Source of the DNA: Nymphaea colorata
Taxonomy: Eukaryota; Streptophyta; Magnoliopsida; Nymphaeales; Nymphaeaceae
Length of the DNA stretch: 64,000 bases
Assembly (NCBI RefSeq): GCF_008831285.2
Contig: NC_045147.1
Coordinates: 21,158,981 to 21,222,980 of the forward strand
Direction of reading: 5' to 3'
In this document: positions 19,197 through 60,795 of the stretch, in pieces
Numbering within the stretch: the first letter of the stretch is position 1
Layout: each line of letters opens with the position of its first letter
Notes under the pieces: generated by a model
Databases searched by the model: none
The model's input: the letters and a program-made list of their open reading frames with translations, nothing else
What the model was told of the DNA's origin: nothing
Made by a program: the position numbers and the translations under genes

Positions 19197-19697
19197 CTAC
19201 ATGCTCCGTGAATCCATGGTGGCCTGTTCAGCAAAAGTCGAACTGCTTCTTTCATCATCAGTATGCCAAACCATGGAAGAGATAGACACCTCTTCATCAT
19301 CACCATCGATGGTTATTGAAGGACCGGGTGCCAATCCCTCCCCCTTCTTCTCCTCTGATCTGCAAAAAGAGGGCAAGCTCCAAACTACTTACCACATTCG
19401 CCATGGAGGGACGGTCTGCACTCTGCTCTGCCAAGCACCTTTCTGCGGTCTCTGCGAACTTGAGGAGGCACTCGAGTGCTATCTTTCCTTCTAGAAATGG
19501 GTCGATGATCCGCTCGGTTCTTCCCAATCTCATAGAGCGCAACGCCCAATCGGCTAGACCGATCTCTTCCATGGGACGTGACTTGTCGATCGCCGGTCGA
19601 GCACACAAAATCTCTAGCAGAACCACTCCAAATGAGTAAACATCTGATTTCTCGATCAGCCTGTGGAAGCGAAAGTATTCGGGATCAAAGTAGCCGA
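19197..19697 (-). pseudogene. G4: truncated class II receptor kinase, cut by a copia LTR
   Basis: Only the kinase C-lobe and tail remain, from [20 protein letters not shown] to MDSRSM at 19197-19199. The N-terminal direction ends exactly at 19698, where a copia LTR begins, so the activation segment, catalytic loop, N-lobe and ectodomain are gone. An 8-bp deletion in the tail (near 19352, relative to G2 and G5) shifts the frame before the class II end. The surviving sequence is most like G2/G5. It stands where the class II member of the second duplicated unit is expected, directly downstream of G3. Confidence 0.9.
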
Positions 19698-25024: not shown

Positions 25025-25596
25025 AACTACATACCTGTGTAGGCACTCCGGCATGATTTTTCCCACCAAGAACCAACCGGTGATCAGCTGGGTTCTTCCC
25101 TCTCTCATAGAGTGCAACGCCCACTCAGCCAGGCTGATCTCTTCCATGGGACGTGACGGCAACTTTGGTGCCTGTAGACCTTGCCAAAGCCACCACAGCC
25201 AAGGAGGCGGGCATCGTCAAAACTGTTGGTGGCTGCCATTATCTCAGAGAGCGAAAAATGCCGACAATGAGTGTTGGGGGAGCGATTGAGTGTCGCCTCA
25301 CTGCATCTAGAATTGTTGGTAGCTGTTGGAAATGCAAACCATTTCCTCTTCTGATCTTAAACACCTCAAGCCCATTAAGAATTGGATCAGTGTAATACGG
25401 TGGACTATCAATATTTGGATGGAGCTCAATTCGCAAATCACTTTGTTAGTCGTTCGTCAGAGGCATTATTATCATGAAATCTTCATACACTGGCACACCA
25501 ATGTAAAGAGGAGCATGGACTTCTCTTTTTGCATAGAAAAGCACACATCTAGCCCAGAGTCTGCAGTCATGTTGTTCAAATACACGTTGAAAGAGA
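25025..25596 (-). pseudogene. G6: decayed, internally deleted CrRLK1L remnant
   Basis: Short blocks in receptor order but with most of the gene missing. There is a C-lobe piece (25025-25155, related to REGRTEQIIDRFLEGKI), then an abrupt jump to the glycine-loop region (25155-25245), then the juxtamembrane region, and then the end of malectin B (25350-25596). The middle of the kinase, the transmembrane helix, malectin A and the signal peptide are absent, and several stops and frameshifts are present. The surviving words gagagcgaaaaatgccgacaatgag and gcgattgagtgtcgcctca are most like G10, so this is a relative of G10 and not of G1. Confidence 0.85.
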
Positions 25597-26040
25597 GAAA
25601 CTGAGATCGACAACATGAATACAAGATGTAGAAAACAAGGAGTGAAAAGACAAATCATTGGTAGCTTGAATGATGGTCAAGCAAGATTCACATCGAACAT
25701 GTGATCAGAGGGTAGTCAACAGCCAAATCAGCCTCCATTTCATCAAGCTGCGGACTTGAACTGGCCTGAGAATAAGACCAGCGGTAGGAAACAAATGCAG
25801 CCTTGTACTAGAGGGTTGAAGGAGGAAGCGGAGGGGAACAGAGTCGGGGTGGCAACGCCTAGCAGAAGCAAGGCAAGTTGTCTGTTCATCTCGTTGAGCA
25901 GCCTTATAATCGAATGCAGATATCTACTTCACTTCACCTGTATTGAGACACTTGTTGCCTTTCCAGGGATGGAAAAAAAGAAAAGGAAAAAGACAATCGT
26001 GGGGTGGATATCATAGTTTTCCATCCTTTCCTCTTCGACG
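25597..26040. other. Intergenic; contains a paralogue of the copia target site
   Basis: No gene recognised. The stretch caaatcagcctccatttcatcaagctgcggacttgaactgg (about 25723-25762) resembles the sequence flanking the copia element at 51594 (cagatcagcctccatttc, tggacttgaact). It therefore looks like an unoccupied copy of that insertion site. Confidence 0.5.
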
Positions 26041-33751: not shown

Positions 33752-34795
33752 CTCCCTGAGACACCTGAAGCCGAACAAAAGCACAGAATCTACTTTACCA
33801 TGTACATGTAAATGAAAAATTTCTAAGCATCCAAGAGAAATATTGCAGTGAAAAAGACTATTCCGGACAAAATTTGCAACTTTCTTAGCATCCCAACCAT
33901 TTTTGAGACTATAAATATTGGCTTGAAAATTTAAGCGGGGAGGTAGGAAGTAAGGAGAAGAAAAGAAGCTCTTTTCACGAAAGCAATTTGATTAGCGATT
34001 GAAGGGGTGATAGCAGCACCTGCAATCAAATTTACTGAAACCACAAATGCAGAGCAGCGATTGAAATTCTAAAAAAAAAAAAAAAATCAGAAAATAGAAC
34101 AGAAATAAAATTTGTATACTCCGACTTTTGATATTCCGCCGGGAAAAACGCAGATAGAGCTACTGCACGCGAGAGCTCGCTCCTGGGACACTCGTCTAAC
34201 GACTTGGATTTTACTGGATGACGGCAAAAAATTTCACAGAATAACTCTCCAGTTGCCTGAGAGAAACAGAGACGGGCAATAAGCGAAAACATGATGCTGG
34301 AGCGGAAGGACGTCCGATTCCAACACGCCACCTACATAGTGTGTGTGAAAGAGAGAGAGAGAGAGAGTAGTTACCAGTGCAGACAACAAATTGCTCCCAG
34401 ACGAGCTAGATTCCAGCCGGAAGCTTCATCCAGCTTAAGGAAGAACGGGATTGGAGGAGATGGAGCTCTGGCGGTGGAAGATACCTTTTTGGTAAATATC
34501 GCGTGGGATGGAGGAGGAAGACTGAGGAGTCCACCAGGAGAGAATCGACATCGTTGGGAAGCGACGACCATGCATCCATCTCCTCCACTCGACCTACACG
34601 AAGTGTTTTCTCTCTCTTCCAAAATTCCAAAATGGAGACAGAAAAGGCTGCATCAGAAAGCGATGATAATGGCGATCCGATGCGACGCGCAGTGGAGACA
34701 ACCATCGATCGGGTATTTACCTTCTTCCTTTCTCAGGCATCGAATTTCTGATCCCCCGAAGCAGAGTATTTCAATCGAACTGGTTATAAATCGAT
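33752..34795 (-). promoter_or_regulatory. Leader, intron and module of G8
   Basis: Conserved acceptor 13 nt before the ATG, GA tract 34343-34367 beside the donor-like gttaccagtgc, and leader module 34375-34795. The leader frame (MVVSTARRIGSPLSSLSDAA) is open for 99 codons, as in G1. The ACGT-core word is kept just upstream (gccgacgtgggg, near 34807). Confidence 0.6.
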
Positions 34796-37144: not shown

Positions 37145-37400
37145 TTAAGTTGATTCAATTTCATAAATTTCCTGTACATCACGAACAGATGGTCTGCTTC
37201 TCTCGTCCCTTGAAGACACGGATGCCTCTTCATCGTCCATTAAAGAACTGTTAGACGATCCCACCTCCTTCATGTTCCCCTCGTCTGCGCGGAATTGAAG
37301 AGCCAGAGCAAGCTCCAAACTGCTTACCACATTGGCCATAGATGGACGCTCTCCGCTTCTTTTAGCCAAGCAGTTGTATGCGGTCTGCGCGGAATTGAAT
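37145..37400 (-). pseudogene. G9: fragment of a class II kinase tail
   Basis: About 85 codons are recognisable, from the end of the kinase ([20 protein letters not shown]) through an acidic, serine-rich tail (DDEEASVSSRDE) to a TAA at 37145-37147. Everything upstream (rest of the kinase, membrane segment, ectodomain) is absent; beyond 37400 the sequence is unrelated. It is more divergent than other class II remnants and the tail end differs (EIYEIEST instead of MDSRSM). It is an old, separate relic between G8 and G10. Confidence 0.8.
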
Positions 37401-38933: not shown

Positions 38934-41597
38934 CTACATGCTCCGTGAATCCATGGCGGCCAGCCCATCAGAAGTCCACCGGATTTTCTCATCATCAGTT
39001 TGCCACACCATGGAAGACATGGACACCCCTTCATCATCACCATCTAGGCTCACATTGGAATAACCAGCAGCCAGTCCATCATCCATGTTCCCCTCTCCTT
39101 CGCTGATCTGTAAAAACAGGGCAATCTCCAAACTGCTTACCACATTGGCCATAGACGGACGCTCTGCACTTTTTTCTGCCAAGCACTTCTCGGCGGTTTC
39201 TGCATACCTGTGTAGGCACTCCGGCGTGATTTTTCCCTCCAAGAACCGATCAATGATCTGCTCGGTTCTTCCCTCTCTAATAGACAACAATGCCCACTCG
39301 GCCAGGCTGATCTCTTCCATTGGACGTGACATGTCGATCACAGGCCGAGCACACAGAAGCTCTAACATAACTACCCCAAATGAGTAGACGTCTGATTTCT
39401 CTGTCAACCTGCGCAGGCGGAAGTACTCTGGATCAAAGTAGCCGAAGGTGCCCTTCACCCCTGTGCTCACATGGCTGCAATCCAATGATGACCCCATCCT
39501 CGAGAGGCCGAAATCAGAAACCTTGGCCACCCAATTCTCATCCAAGAGTATGTTGGCGGTCTTCACGTCCCTGTGTATGAGTGTGTAGGTGGCTCCGGCA
39601 TGAAGATAATGAAGCCCCTTAGCCGCACCAATGCATATCTCAAGTCTCTGCCTCCAAGATAAAGGTGGCTGGTTAGTGCCATAGAGGTGTTGACGCAGGG
39701 TGCCGCGAGCCATGTAGTTATAGACAAGGATCATCTCGGAACTGTCATCACAGTAACCGATTAGGGACACCAGGTGGCGATGGCGGAGCTTAGAGAGCAT
39801 CTCGATTTCGTTCTTGAATTCATGCACTCCCTGCTCTGCTTGTTGGTTCCCACGCTTGATGGCAACTTTGGTGCCGCCATCTATTTCACCTATGTAGACC
39901 TTGCCGAAGCCACCACGCCCAAGGAGGAGAGCATGGTCAAAATTGTTGGTGGCTGCTATTATCTCAGAGAGCGAAAAATGCCGACAATGAGTGATGGGGA
40001 AGTGATTAAGTGTCGCCTCATTACATCTAGAATCCTTGGTAGCTGTTGGAAGTGCAAACCATTTCCTCTTCGCCTGCTCAAGGGGAGATTGCAGTTTATG
40101 TTGACGTCCACCACCAACATCGCTCCATTTCGTCTTCCCTTTACCTTTCTTCTGTTGTCTAATCAGCACCAAGTAGAGGATGATAGCAATCCCCAACGCC
40201 ACGACAGTTACTGTTCCAATCACAACACCTATGATTGGGGTCTTATGGCCACCGTCACGCCCTACTTTTTCGGGTGAAGGCGGAGGCGAGAGGTCTGGAT
40301 TTGGCCGTGCAAGGTTTCTAGAGAGATCGCTGATCTTAATCACCTCAAGCCCATTAAGAATCGCATCTGCGTAATATGGTTGAACATCAATATCTGGATG
40401 GAGCTCAATCTTCAAGTCGCTTTGTTTGCCACTCGACGAAGGCACTATTACCATGTAATCTCTATACACTGCTACGCCAGTGTATGGAGGAGATTGGACG
40501 TTTTCCTTCGCACTGTAAATCACATCGAATCCAGGATCCGCAGTCATGTTGTTCACGTACACATTGAATACCCTTTGGTTCTCTTGGAACACCTCAGACT
40601 GAATCTCACAAAAATGAAGTCTAATCAAGTAACGGAATCCATTATCGACAGTGATAGACCATGTGAGGTTGTAGTTCAGGTTGACAGAGGCATTAGGACC
40701 CATAGACCGAGCAGTGCCATATACGTCTGGTGGAGCAATATACTCCGGGACATTCTTTGAGTACTGGATGCTTACATTCTGATCACGAGGGTATGAGACC
40801 CCTGAAGCATCAGGAAAGACATACGGCGTGTCATCATACCATGTTCTAAAGAGGCCAGAATCACCAGCGGGTGAGATGTATGCCCCACCAACATTTAGCC
40901 GAGCGACAGTTTGCAAGACATGATAATCATATATTCGGAATGTCAGGCCAGGAGTATTAACTATCTGGGAGGAGTTGGAGATGCCAGAGTTGAACAGTTC
41001 TGGCGAAGACACAATCTCAATTCCGTTGATGAAAGCGAACGAATAGGGTTTGCCCGATGAGGGAGCGAAAACAAGGGTGAGGGTTCCAGCGTGCCGGATG
41101 GTAATGAAGAATTCGTGTATGATGTAAGCTTGGTTGAAGTTTGTGACAATAGTAGCAGGGTTGAAGTTCTCGAGCAAAGTGTAAGCATCAGCAATGACAG
41201 AGAAGGTGGCATTATAGGGGTCGAGGTTGTTGTAGTAAGCAGGGAAAAAGTGGAGTCTAAGAAAATGGCGGCCTTCAGAGAGATCAGGAGACGTGTAAGT
41301 GGAAGTGGAAGTAAAGACTCGTGCAGTTCCATATGGAACTTTAGATGGGATTGGGAAAAAGTCAATGGTTTTGTTAGCTTGAGTGGGGAAAGAAGATGAG
41401 CCAGAGTAAGTGGCGCTAGAATCGTTGCTCCAGCGGCGCTTATCAGCATCGAGATCGTCGGCCGACGCCCCACAGTTTAGAAAGATTACATCCACCGGCT
41501 TGAAGGAAGAGGCAGCTGAGCATAACCGAGGGTCAAGAAGCAAGAAACAGCAGATATATTGGAAAAGCAGTCTCTCTGAAAAACTTGCCCTCTTCAT
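38934..41597 (-). CDS. G10: divergent CrRLK1L receptor kinase (class II tail, mosaic)
   Basis: An 887-residue intact frame with its own N-terminus (MKRASFSERLLFQYICC), signal peptide about 1-28, two malectin-like domains, a distinct transmembrane segment (IGVVIGTVTVVALGIAIILY) and juxtamembrane, and a kinase with GRGGFG at 560-565, VAIK Lys581, HRD 675-677, DFG 695-697 and [10 protein letters not shown]; it ends MDSRSM. Malectin A, the transmembrane region and the juxtamembrane are well diverged from G1, but malectin B from about EYIAPPDVYG to KIELHPDIDV is almost identical to class I copies, which indicates gene conversion. The C-lobe is nearly the same as that of G8. The leader module shared by other copies is absent upstream, so its expression is probably different. 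Confidence 0.92.
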   Translation of the reverse strand: MKRASFSERLLFQYICCFLLLDPRLCSAASSFKPVDVIFLNCGASADDLDADKRRWSNDSSATYSGSSSFPTQANKTIDFFPIPSKVPYGTARVFTSTSTYTSPDLSEGRHFLRLHFFPAYYNNLDPYNATFSVIADAYTLLENFNPATIVTNFNQAYIIHEFFITIRHAGTLTLVFAPSSGKPYSFAFINGIEIVSSPELFNSGISNSSQIVNTPGLTFRIYDYHVLQTVARLNVGGAYISPAGDSGLFRTWYDDTPYVFPDASGVSYPRDQNVSIQYSKNVPEYIAPPDVYGTARSMGPNASVNLNYNLTWSITVDNGFRYLIRLHFCEIQSEVFQENQRVFNVYVNNMTADPGFDVIYSAKENVQSPPYTGVAVYRDYMVIVPSSSGKQSDLKIELHPDIDVQPYYADAILNGLEVIKISDLSRNLARPNPDLSPPPSPEKVGRDGGHKTPIIGVVIGTVTVVALGIAIILYLVLIRQQKKGKGKTKWSDVGGGRQHKLQSPLEQAKRKWFALPTATKDSRCNEATLNHFPITHCRHFSLSEIIAATNNFDHALLLGRGGFGKVYIGEIDGGTKVAIKRGNQQAEQGVHEFKNEIEMLSKLRHRHLVSLIGYCDDSSEMILVYNYMARGTLRQHLYGTNQPPLSWRQRLEICIGAAKGLHYLHAGATYTLIHRDVKTANILLDENWVAKVSDFGLSRMGSSLDCSHVSTGVKGTFGYFDPEYFRLRRLTEKSDVYSFGVVMLELLCARPVIDMSRPMEEISLAEWALLSIREGRTEQIIDRFLEGKITPECLHRYAETAEKCLAEKSAERPSMANVVSSLEIALFLQISEGEGNMDDGLAAGYSNVSLDGDDEGVSMSSMVWQTDDEKIRWTSDGLAAMDSRSM

Positions 41598-42268: not shown

Positions 42269-42520
42269 AGCGCACTGCAGAACTAGCACCTGAAGTTCTT
42301 CAGAATATGATGGAAAAAATGCCAGAAAAGCGATTCCAAAGCTGACATTTTCACAAAAACGATATTCACAAAAACGGAATAAAGGATGCTATATTCTCAT
42401 AAATGAACTAGAAAAAGTGCCAATCAACTCTTTTGCTCAGAGGCCTACTCAGGACCTAGGAAAAAAAAAAGGAAAAGAAAAGTGAACTGCGCCAAAGAAG
42501 AAAAATATGGCACGTGAAAC

Positions 42521-43041
42521 CGTGGAGGCACCTGAAGGGAACAATTCCGACGATGGCATTGATGAAGGCGAACGAATCAGGGGTGCTTAGTGAGGGACTA
42601 AAGGTGAGGGTGAGGGAGCCAGAGGAGAGGGCAGTGACGAAAACTCATGCTTGTTGTAGGGTTGAGTGAGGGCTAAAGCGGTGATGGCGGGGCTGAAGTT
42701 GCTGAGCACAGTGTAAGGCCCAGTTGTGCCAGAAAAGAAGGTGAATTTAGGGTCTCGGTCATTGTAGACGGCAGGGAAGAAGTGGAGCCGAACCAAATGA
42801 CAACCTTCAAAAAGTGCAGTAAAGTTGTCAACTTGTAATAGGAAGCAGAAGTGAAGATGCGAGCAGTTTGGTAGGGAACAAGAGAAAGGAGAACAGAAAG
42901 GTCGCTGGAAGTTCAGGCAGAGAAACAAGATTGTAAATTTGAGGGACGAAAGTGGTTGGTAGAGTCGTTGGTCCATCGACGCTCAAAAAAAAGCAACAAA
43001 TGGAAGATAGGTAGCAGAAAGGCGTAAGTTGATTCCTTCAT
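42521..43041 (-). pseudogene. G11: N-terminal remnant of a class I receptor
   Basis: Starts with the usual MKEST Met (43039-43041), but the mature N-terminus has a deletion (hydrophobic core joined directly to ERRWTNDST). Further small indels break the frame (for example near 42835 and 42645). The homology covers only malectin A and ends at 42521 with the segment that would encode the inter-malectin linker. Malectin B, the membrane segment and the kinase are absent; unrelated sequence follows. Remarkably, its leader, intron and promoter side (43042-44680) are well preserved. Confidence 0.9.
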
Positions 43042-44075
43042 CTCCCTGAGACACCTGAAGCCCAATAAAAGCACAGAATCTACTTTACCATGCACATGTA
43101 AATGAAAAATTTCTCAGTATCCAAGAGAAACATGCAGGAGAAACTGTACCAGTCAAAATTTGCAATTTTCCTAGCATCCCAAAATCATTTTTGAGATATT
43201 GACTTGAAAATTTAAGCGGGGAAAGTAGGGAGAAGAAAAGGAGCTCTGTTTTCACCAAAGCAATTTGATTAGCGATTGAAAAGGTGATAGTAGCACCTGC
43301 AATCATATGTACTGAAACCACAAATGCAACGATTGAAATTCTAGAAAAAATTCAGAAAATAGAAAAGAAATGAAATGTGTATTATCTGACTTTTTATATT
43401 CCGCCGGGGAAAACGCAGATTGACCGACTGCGCACGGGAGCTCGCTCCTGGGAAACTCGTCTAACGACTTGGACTTTACCGGATGACGCCAAAAATTCAC
43501 ATAATAACTCTCCAGTTGCCTGAGAGAAACAAAGACGGGCAATAAGCGAGAACATGATGCTGGAGGGGAAGGACGTCGGATTCCAACACGCCGCCAACAT
43601 AGTGTGTGTGTTAGAGAGAGAGAGAGAGAGAGAAGTTACCAGTACAGACAACAAATTGCTCCCAAATGAGTTAGATTCCAGCCGGAAGCTTCATCCAGCT
43701 AAAGGAAGAACGGGATTGGAGGAGATTGAGCTTGGGGATGGGCAATACCTTTTTGGTAAATATAGCATGGGATGGAGGAGGAAGACTGAGTCGTCCACCA
43801 GGACCGGACCAGGAGGGAATCGACATTCCGGTCGTTGTCGCGACCATCACTCCCTTTCTCGTCCACTCGACGTACTCAAAGTGTTTTCTCTCTCTTCCAA
43901 AATTCCTAAAATGGAGACAGAAAAGGCTGCATCAGAAAGCGATGATAATGGCGATCCGATGCGACGTGCAATGGAGACAACCATCGATCGGGTATTTACC
44001 TCCTTCCTTTCTCAGGCATCAATTTCCGATCCCCCCAAGCAGAGTATTTCAGTCGACCTCGTTATGAATTGATTC
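43042..44075 (-). promoter_or_regulatory. Leader, intron and module of remnant G11
   Basis: Acceptor-like TTGGGCTTCAG, GA tract 43613-43632, donor-like gttaccagtac and leader module about 43650-44075, closely similar to G1. A 1-bp insertion (attcctaaaatgg near 43905) shifts the leader frame that is open in G1 and G8. Confidence 0.6.
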
Positions 44076-45620: not shown

Positions 45621-48164
45621 CTACATGCTCCGTGAATCCATGGTGGCCTGCTCAGCATAAGTCGAACTGCTTCTATCATCATCAGTATGCCAAACCATGG
45701 AAGACATGGACACCTCTTCATCATCACCATCCACGGCCATGGAAGGACCGGCAGCCAATCCCTCCCCCTTCTTCTCCTCTTCTCCGCTGACCTGTAAAAA
45801 AAGGGCAAGCTCCAAACTACTTACCACATTCGCCATAGACGGACGGTCTGCACTCTGCCAAGCACCTTTCTGCAGTCTCTGCAAACTTGTGGAGGCAGTC
45901 GAGTGCTATCTTTCCCCTTAGAAATGGGTCGATGATCGGCTCGATTCTTCCCAATCTCATAGAGCGCAACGCCCAATCGGCCAGACCGATCTCTTCCGGT
46001 CGAGCACACAAAGTCTCTAGCAGAACCACTCCAAACGGGTAAACATCTGATTTCTCGGTCAGCCTGTGGAAGCGGAAGTATTCTGGATCAAAGTAGCCGA
46101 AGGTGCCCTTCACCCCTGTGCTCACATGGCTGCAACCCAATGAGGACCCCATCCTCGAGAGGCCGAAGTCGGAAACCTTGGCCACCCACTTCTCATCCAA
46201 GAGTATGTTTGTGGTTTTGACATTCCTATGTATAAGCGTATAGGTGGCTCCGGCATGAAGGTAATGAAGCCCTTTAACCGCACCAATGCATATCTCAAGT
46301 CTCTGCCTCTGGTTAGTGCCATAGAGGTGATGACGCAGGGTGCCGTGAGCCATGTGGTTATAGACAAGTATCATCTCAGAGTTGTCATCACAGTAAGCGA
46401 TGAGGGAAACCAGGTGGCGATGGCGGAGCTTAGAGAGCATTTCTATCTCGTTCTTGAATTCACGCACTCCCTGCTGTGATAGTTGGTTCCCTCGCTTGAT
46501 GGCAACCTTGGTGCCACCGTCTATTATCTCACCCCTGTACACTTTGCCAAAGCCACCAGCCCCAAGGAGCAGTTCATCGTCAAAATTGTTGGTGGCTGCT
46601 ATCATCTCGGAGAACCTGAAGTGCCGGCAATAAGCATTAGAGACCCGTAGTGCCGGCAATAAGCATTAGAGGCGTTGCTCTGAGCGACCAGGCTCTTCTC
46701 TGCTGGAATTAGAGTTGATTTCCCGCTTTTCCCTCGTACGTAAGGCGATAACGGGACCCGCAGGTGCAAGCGCCGGCAACAAGCGCGGCAGCTATGCCTC
46801 CCACGGCGCCTGCAATCACGAGGCTGTGACCACCACCATGACGACCAACGGGCGGAGAACTATTCTTAGGTGCAGGCGCCCACGGGAGGTCTGGATTTGG
46901 TCCAGCAAGGTTACCAGATGAGTCATTGACCTTGAAGACTTCAAGCCCATTAAGAATTGCATCTGCGTGATTGGGTCCGATCTCAGCATCTGGATGGAGC
47001 GTAATCGACATGTAGCTCCGTTCACTTCCCTCTACAGGCACTTCTATGATATAGTCCCTGTACACAGCCACGCCTGTCAAAATAGTAGTGTTGACTTTCT
47101 TAGATGCATAGTCAAGCACATCAAATTTAAGATCTGCCGTCATGTTGTTCACATATATGTCGAACACCCTCTGGTTCACGTTGTTGATCTTTGATTGTAT
47201 CTCACAGAAATGAAGCCTAACCCAGTAGCGAAATCCGTTGTCTATAGCAATATTCCACTGGAGGTTATAGTTCTTGTCGACCGATGCATTAAGCCCCATT
47301 GATCGAGCAGTGCCATACACGTCTGTTGGAGCAATATAATCTGGGAAAGCATCAGAATTCTGGACCCTTATATTTGGATCACGGTTGTAGGAAACTCCAA
47401 GAGCGGCACCATAGACGTATGGACTATCATCATACCAAGTCCGGAAGAGGAGGCCGGAATCAGAGGTGGGAGTGACGTAAGCTCCGCCCACATTCAGCCG
47501 AACGACGGTTTGCAAAGCCTCGGAATGTTGTATGCGAAATATTTGGTCGGTTTGGCCAACGGTGGAAGAAGGGTTAAAGGCGAAGGAACGGAAAAGTTCT
47601 ATGCCATTGTGAAGGCGAACGAATCAGGGGTGCCTTTTGAGGGGGTGAAGGTGAGGGCGAGGGAGCCAGAGGAGGGTGCAGTGATGAAAAACTCTTTAAC
47701 GATGAAGGCTTGTGTGAGGGCTAAAGCGGTGATGGAGGGACTGAAGTTGTCGAGCAGAGTGTAAGGCCCAGTGGTGACAGAAAAGAAGGCATTCTTGGAT
47801 CTCGGTCATTGTAGACAGCAGGGAAGAAGTGGAGGCGAACGAAATGACGACCTTCAGGAAGTGCAGTGAAGTTGTAAGAGGAAGTAAAAGTGAAGATGCG
47901 AGCAGTTTGGTAGGGAACAGAAGGGATTTCAGAGTTAAAAGCTTGGGCAACGAAAGAAGATTGTAAATTTGAGTGACCAAAGTGGGTGGTGGAGTCGTTG
48001 GTCCATCGACGCGTATCTTCATCAACATCGTCAGAGGAAGCGCCACAGTTGAGAAGGATACTCACGGGTTTGAGGTCATGGGTGGATCTGACAAGAGAAG
48101 AAAAAAGCAACAAATGGAAGACAAGTAGCAGAAGGAGAGGCAGCCAGCAAGTTGATTCCTTCAT
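45621..48164 (-). pseudogene. G12: class II CrRLK1L pseudogene with a mutated catalytic loop
   Basis: Recognisable from the MKEST Met (48162-48164) to MDSRSM (45621), but with many lesions. A 1-bp loss near 47800 lies in malectin A, and a deletion near 47600 removes the SSPEL segment. A large deletion (about 46758) removes the membrane-proximal coding part. A tandem duplication of gtgccggcaataagcattagag lies at 46621-46672. The PPLSW segment is lost near 46308, and a 5-bp loss near 45850 shifts the tail. The catalytic loop reads HRNVKTTN in place of HRDVKTTN, so the catalytic Asp is gone. The malectin B part is very close to G2/G5. It is the last class II copy before the retroelement region. 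Confidence 0.92.
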
Positions 48165-48360
48165 CTCCCTGAAACACATGAAACCCAACAAAAGCACAGA
48201 ATCTACTTACCATGCACATGTAAATTTTTAAGAAGCACTTTGATTTGCAAGTGAAGAAGCGACAAATTTACTGAAACCACAAATCCAGCGGCTGGAATTC
48301 TCGAAAATTCAGAAAAAATAAAAGTACGAAAATTTGTATCAGTCTGACTTTTCATATTCT

Positions 48361-50174: not shown

Positions 50175-51175
50175 ATGATCCCAGGCAATAATTTATGTTT
50201 CCGATTTTATAAATGGCAGTTCATACTCGTTCGTAAAAGGGTCATAAGTTTCGTCTTTGTCAGCAACACGTTATTGAGCGTTTCTGCAAGTGGCTGCCTG
50301 GCTACATGCAAGAGGGTAAAACGAAAGATCACACTCACAGGCTGCCATTGGTACATCGAATGGTTTGGTATCGAATACTCATTTGCCAACACTCCACATG
50401 CTATTTCATTGAAATCTAATCTTCACGTTACTGTCGAAGGTGAGAATAGTGACTGACTGCGTCACCAAACCACGCCTTCCACTTTTGCGTTACCTTCCGT
50501 GCCTAGTGACTGACTGCGTCAAAATATATAAGTTGGCTAAAGTGTTAATTGGTTTGTATTGAATTAATTTAAATAATTGAGACCTGGTTTTCTTGTTCTT
50601 CATTGAGTCACTCCTAATTTTCTAAACTTGGTGGTACGTTGTTGAAGATATGTATGTATGCTTAACTTCGAAGAATGGTTGTGGTCATAGAAAATCAATG
50701 CATTAGTAACAGGGAAGGGAATCTCGTGGAAAATTTGTGCACCATTTTTTTATCGTTTTGATTTCAATCTTCAAATGAGGCGGTAAGTTGCTACGTTCGC
50801 TTGGCCTGCACGGAGGATGCCTGTTTATTTCTCTACTTTGTTGAAACAAATTCCTAATAGTATACTGTGCTAGTAGTCTTTATTAAGCGGTTAAATATAA
50901 GTAACAGGTTAGGCACGTATTTTTCTTAATGATGAGATTGAACTTTTACCGTCCAAGGTGAGTTTTAATAATAAAAAGTTGGGCAGTCATTTGTGGTAAC
51001 TGAAACGTTTGGCACTGGTCCGTTATTGTCCCAAACATTGGGCGGTAAATTGTAATTTTTCTTATGAAAAACACAAAAACAGAAAACAAAATACATGAGA
51101 GAAAGACTAGTAAACCAGACAGAGAAGACGAAAAAAAGAAGAGAAAAAACGCAAAAGAGAAAAAGCTCTGGGAAA
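50175..51175. other. Intergenic, no gene recognised
   Basis: Short open frames without domains. The words agtgactgactgcgtca occur twice (about 50448 and 50504). No receptor homology. Confidence 0.5.
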
Positions 51176-51540
51176 GCCTTCGCCAATACCTTCAAACAGA
51201 TTGAAGAAGAAAGATTCAGCTCCTCGATGAGAAAGCATGTCATCATCGTTCCAAAAATACAACCAAAGCCTTCGCCAATACCTTCAAACAGATTGAAGAA
51301 GAAAGATTAAGCTCCTCGAGGAGAAAGCATGTCATCGTTTCAAAAACACAACCAAAGCCTTCGCCAATACCTTCAAACAGATTGAAGAAGAAAGATTAAG
51401 CTCCTCGAGGAGAAAGCATGTCATCGTTCCAAAAACACAACCAAAGCCTTCGCCAATACCTTCAAACAGATTGAAGAAGAAAGATTCAGTTCCTGCTCCT
51501 CGAGGAAAAAGCATGTCATCGTTCCAAAAATACAACCACA
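51176..51540. repeat. Four tandem copies of an ~89-95-bp unit
   Basis: Units start at 51176, 51268, 51357 and 51446, each with gccttcgccaataccttcaa. The first three are 92, 89 and 89 bp; the fourth is about 95 bp. Length differences are multiples of 3 (cat and gctcct insertions), so a frame on either strand stays open through the first units. On plus, one reading repeats KAFANTFKQIEEERF. The origin is unknown. The array ends about 50 bp before the copia insertion. Confidence 0.92.
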
Positions 51541-51593
51541 CCGTAATCGACGGTCAGATCAGCCTCCATTTCTTCAGGCCATGGACTTGAACT

Positions 51594-52247
51594 TGAAAAG
51601 AGTCATCACCGACTCTTGAGAAGGGTCGAGAAGACCCAAGAGGCTACAAGCCTCTTCCGTTTTTTCTGTAAGTCGGTGGAAGTCTCCTCTCTTAAGTCGG
51701 TGCTTGTATAGTCGGTTGTATAGTCGGTGAAAAGAAAAATAATTTAAAAAGAAAAAATGGAAAACGGTGGAAGCTTCATCCACCGACCTCCTCTCCCTAT
51801 AAATAGGGATGGAGGGCATAGCGTGTGTGCATGAAAAGTGAGTTGCTCACTTGGTGAGCTTGAGCGTAGTGTGTGAAAAAGTGTGTGTGAGTCTTAGTCT
51901 ATGTGTTCACTTTGTGAGCTTGTGAGGTGTGTGAGTTGGGTGTACTTTATTTGTGAGCTTGTGAGTGTTACCTCGTGTGTTCACTTCGTGAGCTCGAGCG
52001 TTGCAGTTTCAAGTGTGCGCTGCAAGAGTGTTGGGTGTGTTAGCTCACTGCGTGAGTCGAGGTGAGTTTTCTTAAGTCCTCTTTTGTAATATCCAGTTTG
52101 ATGAATAAATAGTTTGCTTGTTCAAGTATATTTTGCCAAGTTATTATTGAGTATCAGTTTGGACGTCGAGACTCTGCTGGATTTTCTCTGTATAAATTCG
52201 AGTTTGTAGCTCAGTTATATTTAGGGTCCGCATTACGTTTCCCAACA
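51594..52247 (+). repeat. 5' LTR of the copia element
   Basis: 654 bp, starts TGAAAAGAGTCATC and ends TTTCCCAACA. A TATA box (ctataaatag, 51797-51806) probably drives element transcription. A duplicated tatagtcggt word near 51706-51729 is absent from the 3' LTR. Confidence 0.93.
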
Positions 52248-52310
52248 AGTGGTATCAGAGCGAGGTTCTGTCCGAGGGCCGATTTATTGGAATAGTTATA
52301 TCCTGGAATT

Positions 52311-55150
52311 ATGGCGGCATTAGCGGTTGCATTAGACAATATTGAGAAACTTAACAATAGTAATTATGGCTACTGGAAATCCTGTATGGAGTCGTATTTT
52401 TTAGGACAGGAATTATGGGAGATAGTATTAGGATCAGACACTAATATTCCTGTCGACAAGGAAGCGAAAAAGAAATGGATGATCAAAGCAGGAAAAGCTT
52501 TGCAATTAAGGTATCAATCGAGAAAGATTTATTAGAGCATATACGAGATGCTACGACTCCTAAAGAAGCATGGGATGCTTTTGCAACTCTATTTTCTCGA
52601 GCTAATGATGCCCGCCTACAATTGTTAGAAAATGATCTAGCTACATTAACTCAGGGAAGCATGTCGATAGCAGAATATTTTATGAAGGTTAAAAATATCT
52701 GTAGAGAGATATCTCAAATTGATCCTGAGTCAAAGATCAGTGAGACCCGTATACGGAGAATACTTATTCGCGGACTTCGTCCAGAATTTGGCAGTTTCAT
52801 AATTGGTGTTCAAGGCTGGCCAGTTCAACCAACTTTGTTGGAGTTAAAAAATCTCTTGATCAATCAAGAAACATTAGCGAAGCAAATGGTCGGGCTTTCT
52901 CTCAAGGGAAATAATGAGGAAGCTTTGTTTAGTAAGGGTCAGAGATCACGTTGGCCAGCTAAGCAAGTCATTCGGTCTCCAAGTAGGAACGTTGGTGAAA
53001 AGAAAGAGAAAAATGTAGAAAAGAAAACAAGAGAAACTACACAGCAGTGGAGACCAAAGATAAAATATTTTAGATGTGGGAAATTGGGTCATATTGCTCG
53101 TGACTGCAGAGTCAAAATAAATGAAGGAAATGCAGTCATGACAAGTAAGCAAGATGGGGGAGCTAATGAGACTGTACAGAAAAGTTCGTTTCTGTACTCA
53201 ATGGAGGTTAAAGAGGATATTATACAAGAAAGATGCAATTCCGCTCATACAAAACCCGTAAAAGAAAAGGAAGAGAAGATCAATTATCAAACTGATTGGA
53301 TAATTGATTCTGGATGCTCAAATCATATGACCGGTGATGAGAGCAAGTTCGTAAGTCTGAAAGAATATGATGGAAATCGAGTTGTTGTTACTGCTAACAA
53401 CACAAAGCTCCCAGTGGCACATATTGGAGAAGCAGAGGTTGTAGCCAATTTTGGCAAAGACAGGATTTTACGGAACGTTTATCATGTTCCAGGAATGACT
53501 AAGAATCTGTTGTCTGTGCCACAACTAACAGCTTTAGGGCACTATGTTGTGTTCGGCCCAAATGATGTAAAAGTTTATAAGGATGCAGATGTTCAAGGAA
53601 CTCCCATGTTTGAAGGAAGGAAAGTTGAGTCAATATATGTCTTGTCCGCAGAAACATCATATATTGACAAAGCAAAGAAACATGACACTGCAGATATCTG
53701 GCATGAGAGACTCGCTCATGTTGGATACAACAAACTTCGGGAGATGTCTAATAAGGGGCAGTTGATTGGCTTGCCCAAGCTTGAGGTACGAACTGACAAA
53801 GTATGCACAGGATGTCAGTATGGAAAGGCGCACAGGAGGCCATACAAAGAATCAAAATATAGAGCTAAAGCGTCATTCGAGCTTGTGCATTCAGACGTAT
53901 TCGGCAAAGTACCAGACCCATCAGTTGGAGGTAAGTGGTATTTTATCACTTTTATTGATGATTTTTCGAGATATACTTGGGTCTATTTTATGAAAGAAAA
54001 GTCTGAAGCACTTGAAAAATTTAAGGAGTTTCACCAGATGGTGAAAAAAGAACTTGGGCATAGAATTCGGTGTGTACGAACCGATAATGGTGGCGAATAT
54101 ACATCCAATATGTTTATGGCATACACGAGACAACATGGCATTCAAAGACAATTCACATGTGCCTATACACCACAGCAAAATGGAGTGGTAGAACGGAAGA
54201 ACCGCCACATAGCAGAAACATGTCGAAGCATGATGCATGCAAAGAACATGCCACCAAGATTTTGGGCCGAGTGTGTCAGCACGGCTGTACACGTAATCAA
54301 TCGACTACCAATGACGGAATTTAATTTTAAGTCTTCATATGAAATGCTCCATAAAAAGAAGTCATCTGTGAGTTATTTTCGAGTATTTGGTTGTGTTTGT
54401 TATGTTTTTATATCTGAGAAGCACATGACTAAGTTCGACAAAAAGGCACAGAGGTGTGTCTTCGGATATGACCCATATCGGAAAGGATGGAGATGCGCTA
54501 ATCCTAGCACTAGGCAAGTCTATGTCTCTCGCGACGTCATTTTCGATGAAGCATCGTCGTGGTGGTCAGAAGAGAAAAAGACGCTTCCAGACTCTTCAGT
54601 TCTTGAGAGAGATGTTCAAAATAAAATACAATTTGAGATAAATCAAGGAGAGCCTGAGCTTGAAGACACAGAAGCAAGACGACCTGATAAACAGGTCCAA
54701 ATGTCTGAACATAGTTCAAGACAAGAAGGACGAGCAGATCCATGGAGAACAGGAGTAAGTCCAATCCAACAAAGAACTGCAGAAGAAGAAAGACCATCAC
54801 AACTTGAAGAGCCAGAAGAAGCACCAATAGCACTAAGAAGATCAACGAGAATACGAAAACCAAATCCAAAATATACAAATGCAGACTGTGCCATCATGGA
54901 GGAGATCGACCCAGCTTCTTTTGAAGAAGCAAAAGATGTTGAAAAATGGCATGCAGCATTGGAGCGTAACGAGACTCGAGAACTCATACAAAAAGCTTAC
55001 CAGTGCAAACATTTACCAAGCTTGAAGAATGTTAAGAGTCATGAGTCGAGAGTCGGTAATGAGGGGGAGATTGAAAAGAGTCATCACCGACTCTTGAGAA
55101 GGGTCGAGAAGACCCAAGAGGCTACAAGCCTCTTCCGTTTTTTTTTGTAA
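52311..55150 (+). pseudogene. Copia gag-protease-integrase frame, frameshifted and truncated
   Basis: Gag begins at 52311 (MAALAVALDNIEKLNNSNYG) and shifts frame near 52490-52530. From there the frame runs open to 55150. In order: UBN2-type gag (LLEHIRDATTPKEAWDAF), zinc knuckle (YFRCGKLGHIARDC, where Tyr replaces the first Cys of CX2CX4HX4C), protease (WIIDSGCSNHM), pre-integrase HHCC finger (WHERLAHVG to CTGCQYGKAH), and integrase core with its three acidic residues (VHSDVFG, RTDNGGEY, NGVVERKN). It ends soon after RRSTRIRKPNPKY, where RT would begin, and runs into the 3' LTR. The element cannot move by its own proteins. Confidence 0.9.
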
Positions 55151-55725
55151 GTCGGTGGAAGTCTCCTCTCTTAAGTCGGTGCTTGTATAGTCGGTGAAAA
55201 GAAAAATAATTAAAAAAGAAAAAATGGAAAACGGTGGAAGCTTCATCCACCGACCTCCTCTCCCTATAAATAGGGATGGAGGGCGTAGCGTGTGTGCATG
55301 AAAAGTGAGTTGCTCACTTGGTGAGCTTGAGCGTAGTGTGTGAAAAAGTGTGTGTGAGTCTTAGTCTATGTGCTCACTTTGTGAGCTTGTGAGGTGTGTG
55401 AAAAAATTGTGAGTTGGGTGTGCTCTATTTGTGAGCTTGTGAGTGTTAGCTCGTGTGTTCACTTCGTGAGCTCGAGCGTTGCAGTTTCAAGTGTGCGCTG
55501 CAAAAGCGTTGGGTGTGTTAGCTCACTGCGTGAGTCGAGGTGAGTTTTCTTAAGTCCTCTTTTGTAATATCCAGTTTGATGAATAAATAGTTTGCTTGTT
55601 CAAGTATACTTTGCCAAGTTATTATTGAGTATCAGTTTGGACGTCGAGACTCTGCTGGATTTTCTCCGTATAAATTCGTGTTTGTAGATGAGTTATATTT
55701 AGGGCCTGCATTACGTTTCCCAACA
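55072..55725 (+). repeat. 3' LTR of the copia element
   Basis: 654 bp, preceded directly by the polypurine tract and followed by the target duplication GAACT. It has the same TATA box (about 55264-55273). Confidence 0.93.
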
Positions 55726-55811
55726 GAACTGACCTATCAAATGACTCAGAAAACTTTACCAAGTGTAAATTTCATTTAGCAAAGAGAGAAAGAAAGAGAG
55801 AGAGAGTTGAT

Positions 55812-56394
55812 TGTTGGTGTATGGAACTTGATCCATACTAAACACTCATTTACAATACCGCGGAGCGATGAGGGAAACCAGGTGGCAATGGCGGAGCTTA
55901 AAGAGCATTTCTATCTCGTTCTTGAATTCTCGCACTCCTTGCTGTGATAGTTGGTTCCCCCGCTTGATGGCAACCTTGGTGCCACCGTCTATCTCACCCC
56001 TGTACACTTTGCCAAAGCCACCAGCCCCAAGGAGCAGTTCATCGTCAAAATTGTTGGTGGCTGCTATCATCTCGGAGAACCTTGTTAGTGTATGGAAGTT
56101 GATCCATATTGGACACTCATTTGCAATACCGCGGACATATATGTCATTTTGTAAGGGCATATATGTCATTTTGTACAAATGCGGGTTTGCCCTAATCCTT
56201 ATGTTTTGAGGATGGCCGCCGGTTGTTGTGTGTCAGTCTGTGTGTTCTTCTAAGAGAGAGAATACAAGAGATCTGTGCGACCGTGGACGTAGGAGATTAT
56301 TGCTCTGAACCACGTAAATCGTTGTCTTCTTCCTTGTTGCTTCTAACCCCCTCTTGAGAGTGTGAGAAGAGAGTTTATTGTGTTGTTCCTAACA
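55812..56394 (+). mobile_element. Small LTR element enclosing an antisense receptor-kinase fragment
   Basis: Flanked by the perfect 5-bp repeat ttgat (55807-55811 and 56395-56399). Order: a 53-bp piece equal to the start of the LTR (TGTTGGTGTATGG to ccgcgga, 55812-55864), then 218 bp of CrRLK1L kinase in minus orientation (55865-56082), then a full LTR-like sequence (56083-56394) that starts TGTTAGTGTATGG and ends TTCCTAACA. The kinase piece covers [11 protein letters not shown], the glycine loop [15 protein letters not shown] and [10 protein letters not shown] and is closest to G12. No primer-binding site, polypurine tract or pol is present. It is either a captured gene fragment or the result of rearrangement at a solo LTR. 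Confidence 0.75.
55865..56082 (-). pseudogene. CrRLK1L kinase N-lobe fragment inside the LTR element
   Basis: About 72 codons with no stop, from [18 protein letters not shown] through the glycine loop and the ATP-binding Lys (VAIKRG) to HLVSLIA. It corresponds to 46396-46615 of G12, with a few differences (FKLRHCH in place of SKLRHRH). Both ends are cut sharply by LTR sequence. It has no catalytic loop and cannot be a working kinase. Confidence 0.88.
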
Positions 56395-56399
56395 TTGAT

Positions 56400-57513
56400 T
56401 TGATAGAATGGAAATGCATGACACATTTTGTAGACAATAAGTCCCTTAAATATAAAAGCAAACCACAAAAAAAAAATTAAAAAAATAAGATATACAAGAC
56501 AACAGCAAAAATAACAAAAATGCGAAAGAGCAAGTGAATAAAAAAGTGTCAACTCCAAGGTTAAGTGGAAAACGAGGGGCCATCTTCCCGTCAACCCTTT
56601 TCTTTCTTTCTTTCAGTTTATCTTGGGTGTTTTTCAATTTTTTTGGTATTATATTCATACCTAAAAATTTTGGTAAATTTTAATGGCCACATATACTATT
56701 TTCTTTCGTAGTATTTTTCGTACGAATCAAACTATAAATACAAGTTACGAAGGAGGTTGAGATTTAGAGCAGTCGCCCGAAACCCCTTACCTCATTTAAG
56801 TGGTATTTCGATCACTTGAAGAAAATAACTTGATCAATTTTATTTTTCAACTTAATCCTGCCATCTGGTGCCCTTAAAATTGGAAGCCCAGTCATCCCCA
56901 TTAAATCTGTCATATTAGAAAATAAATGTTCCAAACAAATTAAATACAGAACTAAGAGGGGCTTCCGAAGAATTCCATTCTGCGTAGATAATTTTGTCAG
57001 CAGCATCGAAATTACATTTAAATGTTCCAAGTTGCAGATCAGGAGGAAGACATCTTCAGTCACTACATTCAAGAGAACTTTACTTGAGTCACTTGTTTTT
57101 CTTAAAACTATAGGCTACAGAACAATTAGAAAAATATGGATGTGGAAGGTGGTTGGAGTTTTCCACCACAGACTCCCCACTTGCAAGAGAAGGGGTTTGA
57201 CCCTTTAAATTCAAGTGTGTAGGGGCGGAACTAGAAATTTTTCATTAAGGGAGTATAATTAAAGTTTTTAAATTTTAATTAGAGCCGAAATATCGTTTTT
57301 CAAAATTTTTATATATAACAATTAAAATTTTCTAAGATGTCAATGTATAAATAAAGAAACATTTGAAGATGTCATCCACACCAGCTCATGCGTGGCTCCT
57401 CCGTGATCTCACATGACTTGTAAGTCTGAGATTTTTTATTTTTTTTTTTTTGGTTATACGATTAAGCTCACTCTGTGGGCTTAATCTTTTTTATTTCTTT
57501 GCCGAATATCTGC
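56400..57513. other. Intergenic, no gene recognised
   Basis: AT-rich. A minus-strand open frame at 56812-57072 (86 codons) has no domain I recognise. Low-complexity A/T runs occur at 56460-56500 and 57430-57450. Confidence 0.45.
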
Positions 57514-57714
57514 TCATGACGTCAGCTCTCTTACAGTAGAGCTTACCAGGAGCTTTGGTTATGGTTTGATGAAATCAGGAGATGGAGATATTAGAGGAAT
57601 TCAACGCAGATCAGCGGTTCATGACGCGAGCTCTCTTACAGTGGAGTTCACCAGGAGCTACGGTTCTACTTATGGTTTGATGAGATCAAGAGATGGAGAC
57701 ATTAGAGGATTTCA
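57514..57714. repeat. Imperfect tandem duplication, about 100-bp unit
   Basis: Two copies share catgacg, agctctcttacagt, accaggagct, tatggtttgatga and agatggaga, at about 57514-57617 and 57618-57714. Not obviously coding. Confidence 0.8.
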
Positions 57715-58263
57715 ATATGGATATTAAAAGATCACCAATTGTAGCTTATCGCATCAACGAGACAGAGCGTTTCGTCCTCTGAAACAGCAATAGAGAATCA
57801 AGGGAATCTTCGCAGAAAATTTGCGTGCGACTGTTTATTATTTTGTTTCCATTATACGACAAAAGCTCTCATCTAGGGCGCCAGATATGAACATCTCTGC
57901 CGAACGAGTAGTTATCATCTAGGGCGAAGAAGCTTCCGCTAAGTATTCTTGAATGCTCGGTTCAAGGAAAATGGATCATGCTGCAGACTCGGATCAATAT
58001 ACAATATTAACACTTTATGTTAAGGACCATATTTTAGCAAGTAGCACTACTTGTGTAAATTGAGAAGAGTTGACACAGACAAAGTAAATGAAGGAATGTG
58101 CCTTCAATCATAGGTATACATTGGAATCCGCCACCACCACAAATCTTAATCATATAGAGGTTAGACTAATTCTATTGCTAGTTCCATTAAATGACTTGTC
58201 ATCGATCAATTGTTTAATTCTCTGTCTCTGCCACTGTACCTCGCGAATTCCGATCCAAATCGT
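57715..58263. other. Spacer and 3' flank of G13
   Basis: No gene recognised. It probably includes the G13 3' UTR. Confidence 0.45.
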
Positions 58264-60795
58264 TCACAAAACTGGTGTCATTGTTTGCCTGTTCGTTTCT
58301 CCCGCGTTCTCCTGCAGCCTGAGAGCTAACTCCAAATTCCATAGCACATCGACCATGGAAGGACGCTCTCCTCCCCTGTTCGCCAAGCACCTCTCTGTGA
58401 TCTCCCAGAACTTGCTTAGGCATCCAGCCTCGATCTTCCCCTTCAAGAAGGGATCAATCACCTCCTCGAGCTTGCCCCTACACTGACAGCTTAATGCCCA
58501 CTCCGCTAGGCCAATCTCCCTGGAAGGACGTGACATGTCGACCGCCGGTCGCGCACAAAGAGCCTCCAGCAGCACCACGCCGAACGAGTAGACGTCCGAC
58601 TTCTGCGTGAGCTTCTTCGTCCGGAAGTACTCCGGGTCGAAGTAGCCGAAGGTGCCCTTCACCTCCGTGCTCATGTAAGCGCAATCCACAGACGTGCCCA
58701 TTCTCGATATCCCAAAATCGGAGACCTTCGCTACCCAATTCTGGTCTATCAATATATTGTTGGTCTTCACGTCTCTGTGTACAAGCGTGTACTTTGCTCC
58801 GGTGTGAAGATAGTGCAGCGCCTTGGCGGCACCGATGCAGATCTCAAGCCTCTGCCTCCACGATAGATGTGGCTTGCCGGCACCGTAGAGGTGCTGGCGA
58901 AAAGTTCCTCGATGCATGTAGTCATAGACCAGTATCATCTCGGAGCTATCCTCGCAGAATCCGATCAGGGACACTAAGTGGCAGTGGTAAAGCTTAGAGA
59001 GAATATCAATTTCATTGTGGAACTGGATAATGCCGTGCTGTGAAAGCTCTTCCCCCCTTTTGACGGCAACTCTGATGCCATTGTCGATCACTCCCATGTA
59101 GACCTTGCTAAACCCACCAACCCCAAGGAGAAGAGTGTCGTCAAAGTTGTTGGTAGCCGCGACGATCTCAGAAAATTTGAAGCGCCGGCAGTTGGTGATA
59201 GGGACGCGGTCTGTAAATCCTGCGCCCTTCATGACATGTCTAATGGTTGCTGAAGTTGGATCCGACTTGCCTTTCTTTGGTTGCCTGTAGCTTGATCCGT
59301 TCCTACACAAAGCTCCGTCGTCATGGCTCTCCTTCTCCTTTTCCCTCTTCTTGAGTATCTTGAGCAACACTAAGAAAAGGAACGCACCAATACTAAGCAC
59401 AGCAGCAAAACCACCAATTGCACATAGAATTATGTGGTCATGTTCACCACCATGCCCACCAATAAGATGAAGAAACTTAGTTTCAGATGGTGGTGGTAGT
59501 GTGAAGCTTCGACTGGGTCCAGCAAGGCTATCAAATGTTTTGTTGACCTTGAAGACCTCAAGTCCATTGAGTATTGCATCTGTGTAAAAGGGTTTAATAT
59601 CAGTAACAGGCTGGAGCTCAATTAGCAAACGGCTTTCCTTGCCACTCTGCCCTGGCATTAATACCATGTAATCTTTATACACAGCCACACCAGTGTATGT
59701 GGGAGCTCTGATTTTTTCGCTTGCATAGAGAATCACGTCGAATTCAGGATCCGCCATCATGTTGTTCACATACACGTTGAATACCCTCCGGTTCTCTTTG
59801 TACACCTCCTGTTGAAGCTCACAGAAGTGAAGTCTGATCAAGTAGCGAAATCCATTGTCCACTGTAATGGACCAAGTGAGGTTGTAGTTCAAGTTCAAAG
59901 AGGTATTAAGCTCCATCGAGCGGGCTGTTGCGTATACATCATGCGGAGCAATGTAGTCTGGAACGCAGTAAGAGTAACGAATGAAGACGTTTCCTTCTGC
60001 TCGTTGTGTCTCTCCAAGAGCAGTGCCAAAGATATATCTGGAATCATCAGACCAGGTTCGGAAGAGCCCGGAATCCTCCATCGGTGAGATTGAACTCCCA
60101 CCAACATTCAGCCGTGCAACGGTTTGAAGGACATCATGATCATATATTGGGAGCAGTAGGCCAACGCCAACTGCAACGGAGGAATTAGTGATGCCAGAGT
60201 AGAACAATTGCGGCGAAGAGATGATCTCGATGCCGTTGATGAAGGCGAAGGTGGCACTTGATGATGGGATGAAGGAGAGGGTGAGATTGCCAGAGGAAGG
60301 GATGGTGATGAAGAATTCCTGGATAATGTAAAACTGGTTCAGGGAAGCAGCAGCTATGGTAGGGCTGAAGTTGCGGAGCAGAGTATATGGGCCGGCTTCG
60401 ACGGAGAAGAAGGCATTCTTGGGGTCGAGGCCATGGTAGAAAGAAGGATAGAAGTACAGCCGCAAAAAGTGGCGACCTTCCGATAGCCCAGTGAAGGTGG
60501 TAGTTGAAGCAGAGGTGAAGATGCGGGCGGTCTTGTGGGGAACTTCAGTAGGAAGAAGATTAGTGAGCGTCTCGGCTGCTTCTGCAGGGAAAGAAGATGA
60601 TGGGACAGAGGAAAAAAACTGGGCACTAGAGTCGTTAATCCAGAGACGCTTATCTGCATCTGTGGCATCGGTCGGCGACCCACAATTCACAAGGACGAAG
60701 TCACGGGGCTTGAAGGAATAAGCAGTTGTGTGAGATACCATGAAACAGAGAACACCTCGCAGAAGCAAAGATGCTGCTGAAGACGGCCTCTTCAT
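58264..60795 (-). CDS. G13: divergent CrRLK1L receptor kinase, short-tailed
   Basis: An 843-residue intact frame starting MKRPSSAASLLL (ATG 60793-60795). Signal peptide about 1-26, two malectin-like domains, transmembrane segment (about ILCAIGGFAAVLSIGAFLFL), basic KKREKEKE, kinase from about 550. The glycine loop reads GVGGFSKV (558-565), so the third glycine of GxGxxG is Ser. Lys579 (VAVK), HRD 673-675, DFG 693-695 and [11 protein letters not shown] are present. The protein stops only about 16 residues after the kinase (QTMTPVL) and lacks the tails of classes I and II. It is the most divergent member, with no shared leader module, and is probably an older paralogue at the edge of the array. 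The kinase looks active apart from the loop change. Confidence 0.93.
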   Translation of the reverse strand: MKRPSSAASLLLRGVLCFMVSHTTAYSFKPRDFVLVNCGSPTDATDADKRLWINDSSAQFFSSVPSSSFPAEAAETLTNLLPTEVPHKTARIFTSASTTTFTGLSEGRHFLRLYFYPSFYHGLDPKNAFFSVEAGPYTLLRNFSPTIAAASLNQFYIIQEFFITIPSSGNLTLSFIPSSSATFAFINGIEIISSPQLFYSGITNSSVAVGVGLLLPIYDHDVLQTVARLNVGGSSISPMEDSGLFRTWSDDSRYIFGTALGETQRAEGNVFIRYSYCVPDYIAPHDVYATARSMELNTSLNLNYNLTWSITVDNGFRYLIRLHFCELQQEVYKENRRVFNVYVNNMMADPEFDVILYASEKIRAPTYTGVAVYKDYMVLMPGQSGKESRLLIELQPVTDIKPFYTDAILNGLEVFKVNKTFDSLAGPSRSFTLPPPSETKFLHLIGGHGGEHDHIILCAIGGFAAVLSIGAFLFLVLLKILKKREKEKESHDDGALCRNGSSYRQPKKGKSDPTSATIRHVMKGAGFTDRVPITNCRRFKFSEIVAATNNFDDTLLLGVGGFSKVYMGVIDNGIRVAVKRGEELSQHGIIQFHNEIDILSKLYHCHLVSLIGFCEDSSEMILVYDYMHRGTFRQHLYGAGKPHLSWRQRLEICIGAAKALHYLHTGAKYTLVHRDVKTNNILIDQNWVAKVSDFGISRMGTSVDCAYMSTEVKGTFGYFDPEYFRTKKLTQKSDVYSFGVVLLEALCARPAVDMSRPSREIGLAEWALSCQCRGKLEEVIDPFLKGKIEAGCLSKFWEITERCLANRGGERPSMVDVLWNLELALRLQENAGETNRQTMTPVL

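Follow-up and report, generated by a model that had tools for sequence, protein, structure and literature searches.

Receptor kinase genes and neighbouring repeats

The window analyzed here is a stretch of 64,000 nucleotides from Nymphaea colorata (NCBI RefSeq assembly GCF_008831285.2, contig NC_045147.1, positions 21,158,981 to 21,222,980 of the forward strand). It contains a cluster of malectin-like receptor kinase genes, as illustrated by 58267-60795, in which Pfam recognizes both PF12819 and PF07714. A tblastn search of the 64-kb window with four cluster proteins detected 14 clusters of genes or gene fragments, all on the minus strand, one of which corresponds to the small LTR-kinase unit that is the subject of this study. 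Stray receptor kinase gene fragments were observed at 19200-19695, 25028-25631, 37193-37390 and 42518-43074; these four isolated fragments all lie on the minus strand and indicate that gene debris is common in the cluster. For Arabidopsis, a cluster of four CrRLK1L genes is mentioned in PMC6093868.

The unit lies beside a rightward Copia element, which we used as a reference for regular anatomy since its TSD, LTRs, PBS and purine tract are all present:

51589-55730, rightward: Copia element
51589-51593 and 55726-55730: Copia target-site duplication (TSD), GAACT
51594-52247 and 55072-55725: Copia LTRs
52250-52261: Copia PBS, TGGTATCAGAGC
55061-55070: Copia purine tract, GAGGGGGAGA

The two Copia LTRs share 94% identity in BLAST, with gaps counted, and differ by 16 mismatches over ~655 bp; an 891-codon frame of the element extends into the 3' LTR. 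Just upstream of the element, an 89-bp unit is repeated four times head to tail (51173-51538, 93% matches). No Rfam family matched at its gathering score within 51000-58000, and no structured RNA was seen there.

Anatomy of the LTR-kinase unit

The components of the unit, together with the closest relative of its kinase piece in the window, are the following:

55807-55811: left TSD, TTGAT
55812-55864, plus strand as for LTRb, promoter direction unsettled: LTRa, LTR bases 1-53 (53 bp), 47/53 identical to 56083-56135
55865-56082, minus strand by its coding sense: 218 bp copied from the N-lobe of a malectin-like receptor kinase (assigned by identity, PF07714 and tree)
56083-56394, plus strand by convention only: LTRb, a complete LTR of 312 bp, TGTTAG...CTAACA, recognized by its TG/CA ends and the TSD
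56395-56399: right TSD, TTGAT
46397-46617, minus strand: N-lobe of a broken receptor kinase gene, 96.4% identical to the kinase piece and ~9 kb from the unit

This arrangement, with a TTGAT pair around an LTR start, a 218-bp kinase N-lobe fragment and a complete LTR, had been proposed in the first-pass annotation, and all its coordinates proved exact to the base. At the local base composition a 5-bp TSD match has a chance of ~0.0012, and an extra TTGAT (56400-56404) directly abuts the right TSD. The LTR start pattern, with up to three mismatches allowed, occurs twice in the window, both times within the unit, and did not occur in 100 shuffles; apart from LTRa, no further copy of LTRb was found in the 64-kb window. 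At the left junction (55864/55865) the LTR ends after base 53, a single bp there matching the context of the closest kinase copy as well, while at the right junction (56082/56083) the kinase sequence meets LTR base 1 with an ambiguity of at most 1 bp. A second copy of these junctions was not found within the 64-kb window, and the kinase/LTR junction pattern had no matches in a collection of viral contigs, which is a weak test for a plant element.

The unit might be the product of two misjoined loci, since assembly is generally difficult where similar kinases and repeats stand in tandem arrays. However, the TSD is intact on both sides and the kinase fragment carries substitutions of its own, which makes an assembly artefact very improbable.

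The kinase piece and its relatives in the window

The minus-strand translation of 55865-56082 yields 72 stop-free residues and matches PF07714 at 5.5e-08. It includes GAGGFGKV and VAIK, which we take to be the glycine loop and the lysine motif, in agreement with the earlier assignment of a glycine loop and an ATP-binding Lys to this fragment. The window holds ten other matches to the piece. The best is 46397-46617, with five substitutions and one 3-bp gap, followed by three at 87.1, 87.1 and 85.4% (the nearest intact genes lie at 85-87%), five at 71.9-72.8%, and one partial match of 80 bp at 83.8%. A tree of ten rows, comprising the unit and nine of the ten window matches (the 80-bp match was omitted), grouped the unit with 46397-46617 with a support of 98/96; the branch leading to the unit measures 0.024 changes per column and that of the 46397-46617 copy 0. 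The piece had been described as part of a neighbouring receptor kinase; within the window, the gene most similar to it is thus a broken one and not an intact receptor. Since 46397-46617 carries a 3-bp insertion that is absent from the unit, it may be a sister of the donor rather than the donor. It runs into ordinary kinase-gene sequence on both sides, with no LTR-like DNA.

The frame of the broken gene is split in three, each part of at least 150 aa (45817-46659, 46709-47515 and 47721-48197), and, compared with the intact copy at 10383-11000, the gene has 29 bp duplicated in tandem and 64 bp deleted. The duplication is visible as 23-bp words repeated at 46620-46642 and 46649-46671; it begins two bases past 46617, where the captured piece ends, and the donor family may have been broken at the same spot.

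Elsewhere in the cluster, the N-lobe stretches 10399-10616 and 21721-21938 are identical to each other, and the genes that carry them share long protein stretches that appear identical by eye, pointing to a recent duplication or conversion. The receptor gene at 31139-33784 looks like a chimera: its N-lobe groups in the tree with the copies at 5334, 14986 and 27174, its C-lobe resembles 38934-41597 by eye, and, also by eye, a few codons are absent at its HLV/YDSSEM join, beside the other boundary of the captured piece.

Evaluation of the unit as a gene-capturing element

Two explanations had been offered for this locus: a miniature LTR element that captured a gene fragment and moved as a whole, and a solo LTR into which a kinase piece entered as filler during repair. 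The second is the better reading and is extended below; the first fails on anatomy, and we ruled it out as the leading view on account of the truncated 5' LTR and because neither a PBS nor a purine tract was found. The LTRs are unlike in length (53 vs 312 bp), the 5' LTR being without 259 of its 312 bp. Our search for a PBS covered two types only, TGGTATCAGAGC and TGGCGCCGTT. For TGGTATCAGAGC, the best site in 55812-56420 has mismatches at 4 of 12 bases (3 of 10 over the first ten bases) and lies at 56062; for TGGCGCCGTT, the best site has 3 mismatches in 10. Nor did 56040-56095, the region before the 3' LTR, contain a run of seven or more purines.

In a new retrotransposon copy, both LTRs are identical after reverse transcription (PMC1950507). 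Given this expectation, the cut 5' LTR, and the PBS and purine tract not found, the present unit could hardly be the direct product of normal reverse transcription or a template for it, and mobility of the unit is disfavoured.

As a mechanism, this first option means that the kinase piece was acquired by template switching during reverse transcription and that integrase then inserted the whole unit as a miniature LTR element. The TSD does enclose the whole unit, as it does in TRIMs, and Sabot and Schulman give flanking TSDs together with similar outer LTRs as the sign of such switching (PMC1950507); gene fragments in TRIMs are also known, with 30 elements from 7 of 289 subfamilies searched (PMC4717578). 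A repaired solo LTR, however, predicts the same TSD. Template switching is further opposed by a 5' LTR of 53/312 bp, by the PBS and purine tract not found, and by a divergence that is greater between the two LTR pieces than between the captured piece and its closest copy. By our reasoning, a captured kinase mRNA should also be sense to the element, whereas the piece would be antisense to an LTR that reads rightwards. We therefore give this origin only a slim chance.

Divergence of the LTR pieces and of the kinase piece

Between LTRa and LTRb, 6 of 53 positions are different; between the kinase piece and its closest copy, the count is 5 of 218 (Fisher p 0.009). If all changes had accumulated at equal rates since one event, five changes on the unit branch would predict 2.4 LTR differences, with a probability of 0.038 for six or more; with four unit changes, the expectation falls to 1.9 and the probability to 0.015. 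This excess suggests that LTRa and LTRb probably derive from two copies that were already different. The argument is a modest one, as it rests on six and five changes and on equal-rate chances of 0.015-0.038. In addition, the mutation rate of LTR DNA may be raised by methylation; transitions, as expected of methylated DNA, make up five of the six LTRa/LTRb differences. The Copia LTR pair, with 16 mismatches over ~655 bp, also differs from the 6/53 ratio (Fisher p 0.004), although the age of that element is its own.

These counts bear on a further explanation, in which a broken retrotransposon cDNA, its LTR ends held by the integration complex, received a kinase copy as a patch there before it was inserted with a normal TSD, which would amount to gene capture without template switching. 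In retrotransposon cDNA, strands naturally end at LTR base 1, and this route would account for both the TSD and the junction at base 1 without any special donor locus. It nevertheless demands that genomic DNA be patched in within the integration complex, and under it the LTR pieces should equal the patch in age, which the counts of 6/53 and 5/218 disfavour; we regard it as improbable.

Repair of a solo LTR as the favoured explanation

Considering the anatomy of the unit, its closest family members in the window, its near-blunt junctions, and the PBS and purine tract not found, we consider it likely that the kinase piece arrived by repair after insertion, in some form. Among such forms, we tentatively favour, at somewhat below an even chance, an old solo LTR that was broken once, repaired from an LTR-bearing kinase copy and closed by end joining. 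A solo LTR between two copies of TTGAT would have suffered a double-strand break behind its base 53. The right end, carrying LTR bases 54-312, would then have paired with a related LTR sitting inside a kinase gene copy, and synthesis would have run back through base 1 of the donor LTR and on for 218 bp into the kinase. The released strand would finally have been joined, without homology, to the left end (TTGAT plus LTR bases 1-53), a route that corresponds to one-sided synthesis-dependent strand annealing (SDSA) closed by end joining. LTRa would thus belong to the original LTR and the start of LTRb to that of the donor, a kinase copy in which a related LTR had inserted right after ...GGAGAACCT.

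This sequence of events explains two features at once. The kinase/LTR join falls on LTR base 1 because the donor LTR would have inserted at that very spot, which a random patch does not give, and the LTR pieces (6/53) are more diverged than the kinase copy (5/218) because the donor LTR would already have been different. Repair is further supported by the TSD, preserved on both sides, and by a closest family member ~9 kb away in the same orientation. As in filler DNA and SDSA, the inserted piece copies identifiable DNA (46397-46617, 96.4%), and homology at the end-joined junction 55864/55865 amounts to 1 bp at most. One-sided repair in tomato likewise copied 966 bp of extra sequence and included 29 bp of unknown origin before re-ligation (PMC4635538), and a comparison in barley attributed filler to SDSA in 38 insertions/deletions (12.7%) (PMC3706897).

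Against the favoured explanation, none of the kinase copies in the 64-kb window is interrupted by an LTR after ...AACCT, LTRa is the only other copy of the LTR in that window, and the closest kinase copy, 46397-46617, has no trace of an LTR at that spot. As this copy also has the extra 3-bp insertion, another copy or allele is required as donor. Another order of events, the insertion of an LTR into a pre-existing kinase fragment, was rejected: the AACCT before LTRb is not repeated after it, where TTGAT is found.

The other form of repair is a deletion with filler. From a full-length LTR element at TTGAT, a single break would have removed the whole internal region and all of the 5' LTR beyond the 53 bp that are left, and end joining would have closed the gap with a copy of a cluster kinase gene. 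Both TSDs would be kept, the product would consist of an LTR start, filler and a full 3' LTR with near-blunt junctions, and plant fillers copied from nearby sites have been described (PMC2686159). The right end of the deletion, however, must hit base 1 of the 3' LTR by chance. The two LTRs of a single insertion are expected to be about as diverged as the filler, or more so if the filler is younger, so that 6/53 vs 5/218 counts against this explanation only if insertion and repair were near in time. Moreover, the fillers quoted in the sources cited here are shorter than 218 bp, with 1-131 bp at maize wx (PMC2686159) and 1-123 bp at rice transposon excisions (PMC4423477). Overall, a deletion with filler is rather unlikely, though the most probable alternative to one-sided repair of a solo LTR.

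Transcript direction and small RNAs

The fragment had been described as antisense to the LTR promoter, which is misleading: the full LTR does not include it, and the promoter of a rightward-reading LTR would not have it downstream. The derived proposal of an LTR transcript antisense to the receptors is excluded by geometry in either orientation of the LTR. Both the kinase genes and the piece have their coding sense on the minus strand. A rightward transcript from LTRb begins past the piece and runs away from it, and a transcript from a leftward-reading LTR crosses the piece in the kinase sense direction. Antisense RNA from the full LTR was therefore rejected. As for LTRa, the first of the plus-strand TATA-like words (few were sought) begins at LTR base 56, beyond its 53 bp.

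The LTR contains GTGGACGTAGG...GAACCACGTAAA, which we take to be a motif of Copia LTRs near the U5 end, and its presence suggests a rightward reading. A literature search for part of this motif returned nothing on the subject by title, and a scan for it gave no matches in viral and bacterial/archaeal contigs, which says little for a plant LTR.

Read-through from the rightward Copia element could cross the piece in antisense. Of the 198 21-mers of the kinase fragment, 95 are present in the broken closest copy, while three intact genes contain 6, 6 and 4 and the other five of the nine copies tested contain none. The idea of siRNA directed against the receptor array thus stands on a weak footing, since the fragment and the intact genes have few perfect 21-mers in common. 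We infer that the kinase fragment is a dead scar without a function of its own.

Comparison with described systems and implications

The unit resembles the plant filler and patch repairs described in PMC2686159, PMC3706897 and PMC4423477, where end joining or SDSA introduced filler, in being a copied genomic piece with near-blunt junctions and no termini of its own; it differs from fillers in plant genes and at excision sites in its length (218 bp vs the 1-131 bp quoted) and in having a junction on an LTR end. With one-sided gene-targeting products (PMC4635538) it shares homologous repair on one side, an illegitimate join on the other, and donor sequence copied past the homology; those products were engineered, whereas the present event is reconstructed from sequence, with no donor found in the window. 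Like the TRIMs with captured gene fragments (PMC4717578), it is a small LTR unit with a TSD and a gene fragment between LTR sequences, but its 5' LTR is incomplete, a PBS and a purine tract were not found in it, and there is no second copy in the window. Bs1 of maize also carries a host gene fragment inside an LTR unit, yet Bs1 is described as a retroelement with captured exons (PMC13317346, PMC4717578), and the present unit lacks parts required to move. Gene fragments in LTR units, including TRIMs and Bs1, are already described in these sources, as are plant fillers in those cited above, and we make no claim that the exact configuration seen here is new to print. Gene movement by gap patching is the subject of Wicker et al. 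2010, cited in PMC4423477.

If the donor is found, the unit would document cleanly, in a natural genome, how one-sided repair between dispersed LTR copies displaces part of a receptor gene whose family has clustered members. The locus also carries a warning, as a TSD around an LTR, a gene fragment and another LTR is insufficient to call gene capture. The unit is most likely a repair scar rather than a mobile gene carrier, and it neatly exemplifies an ordinary feature of plant genomes.
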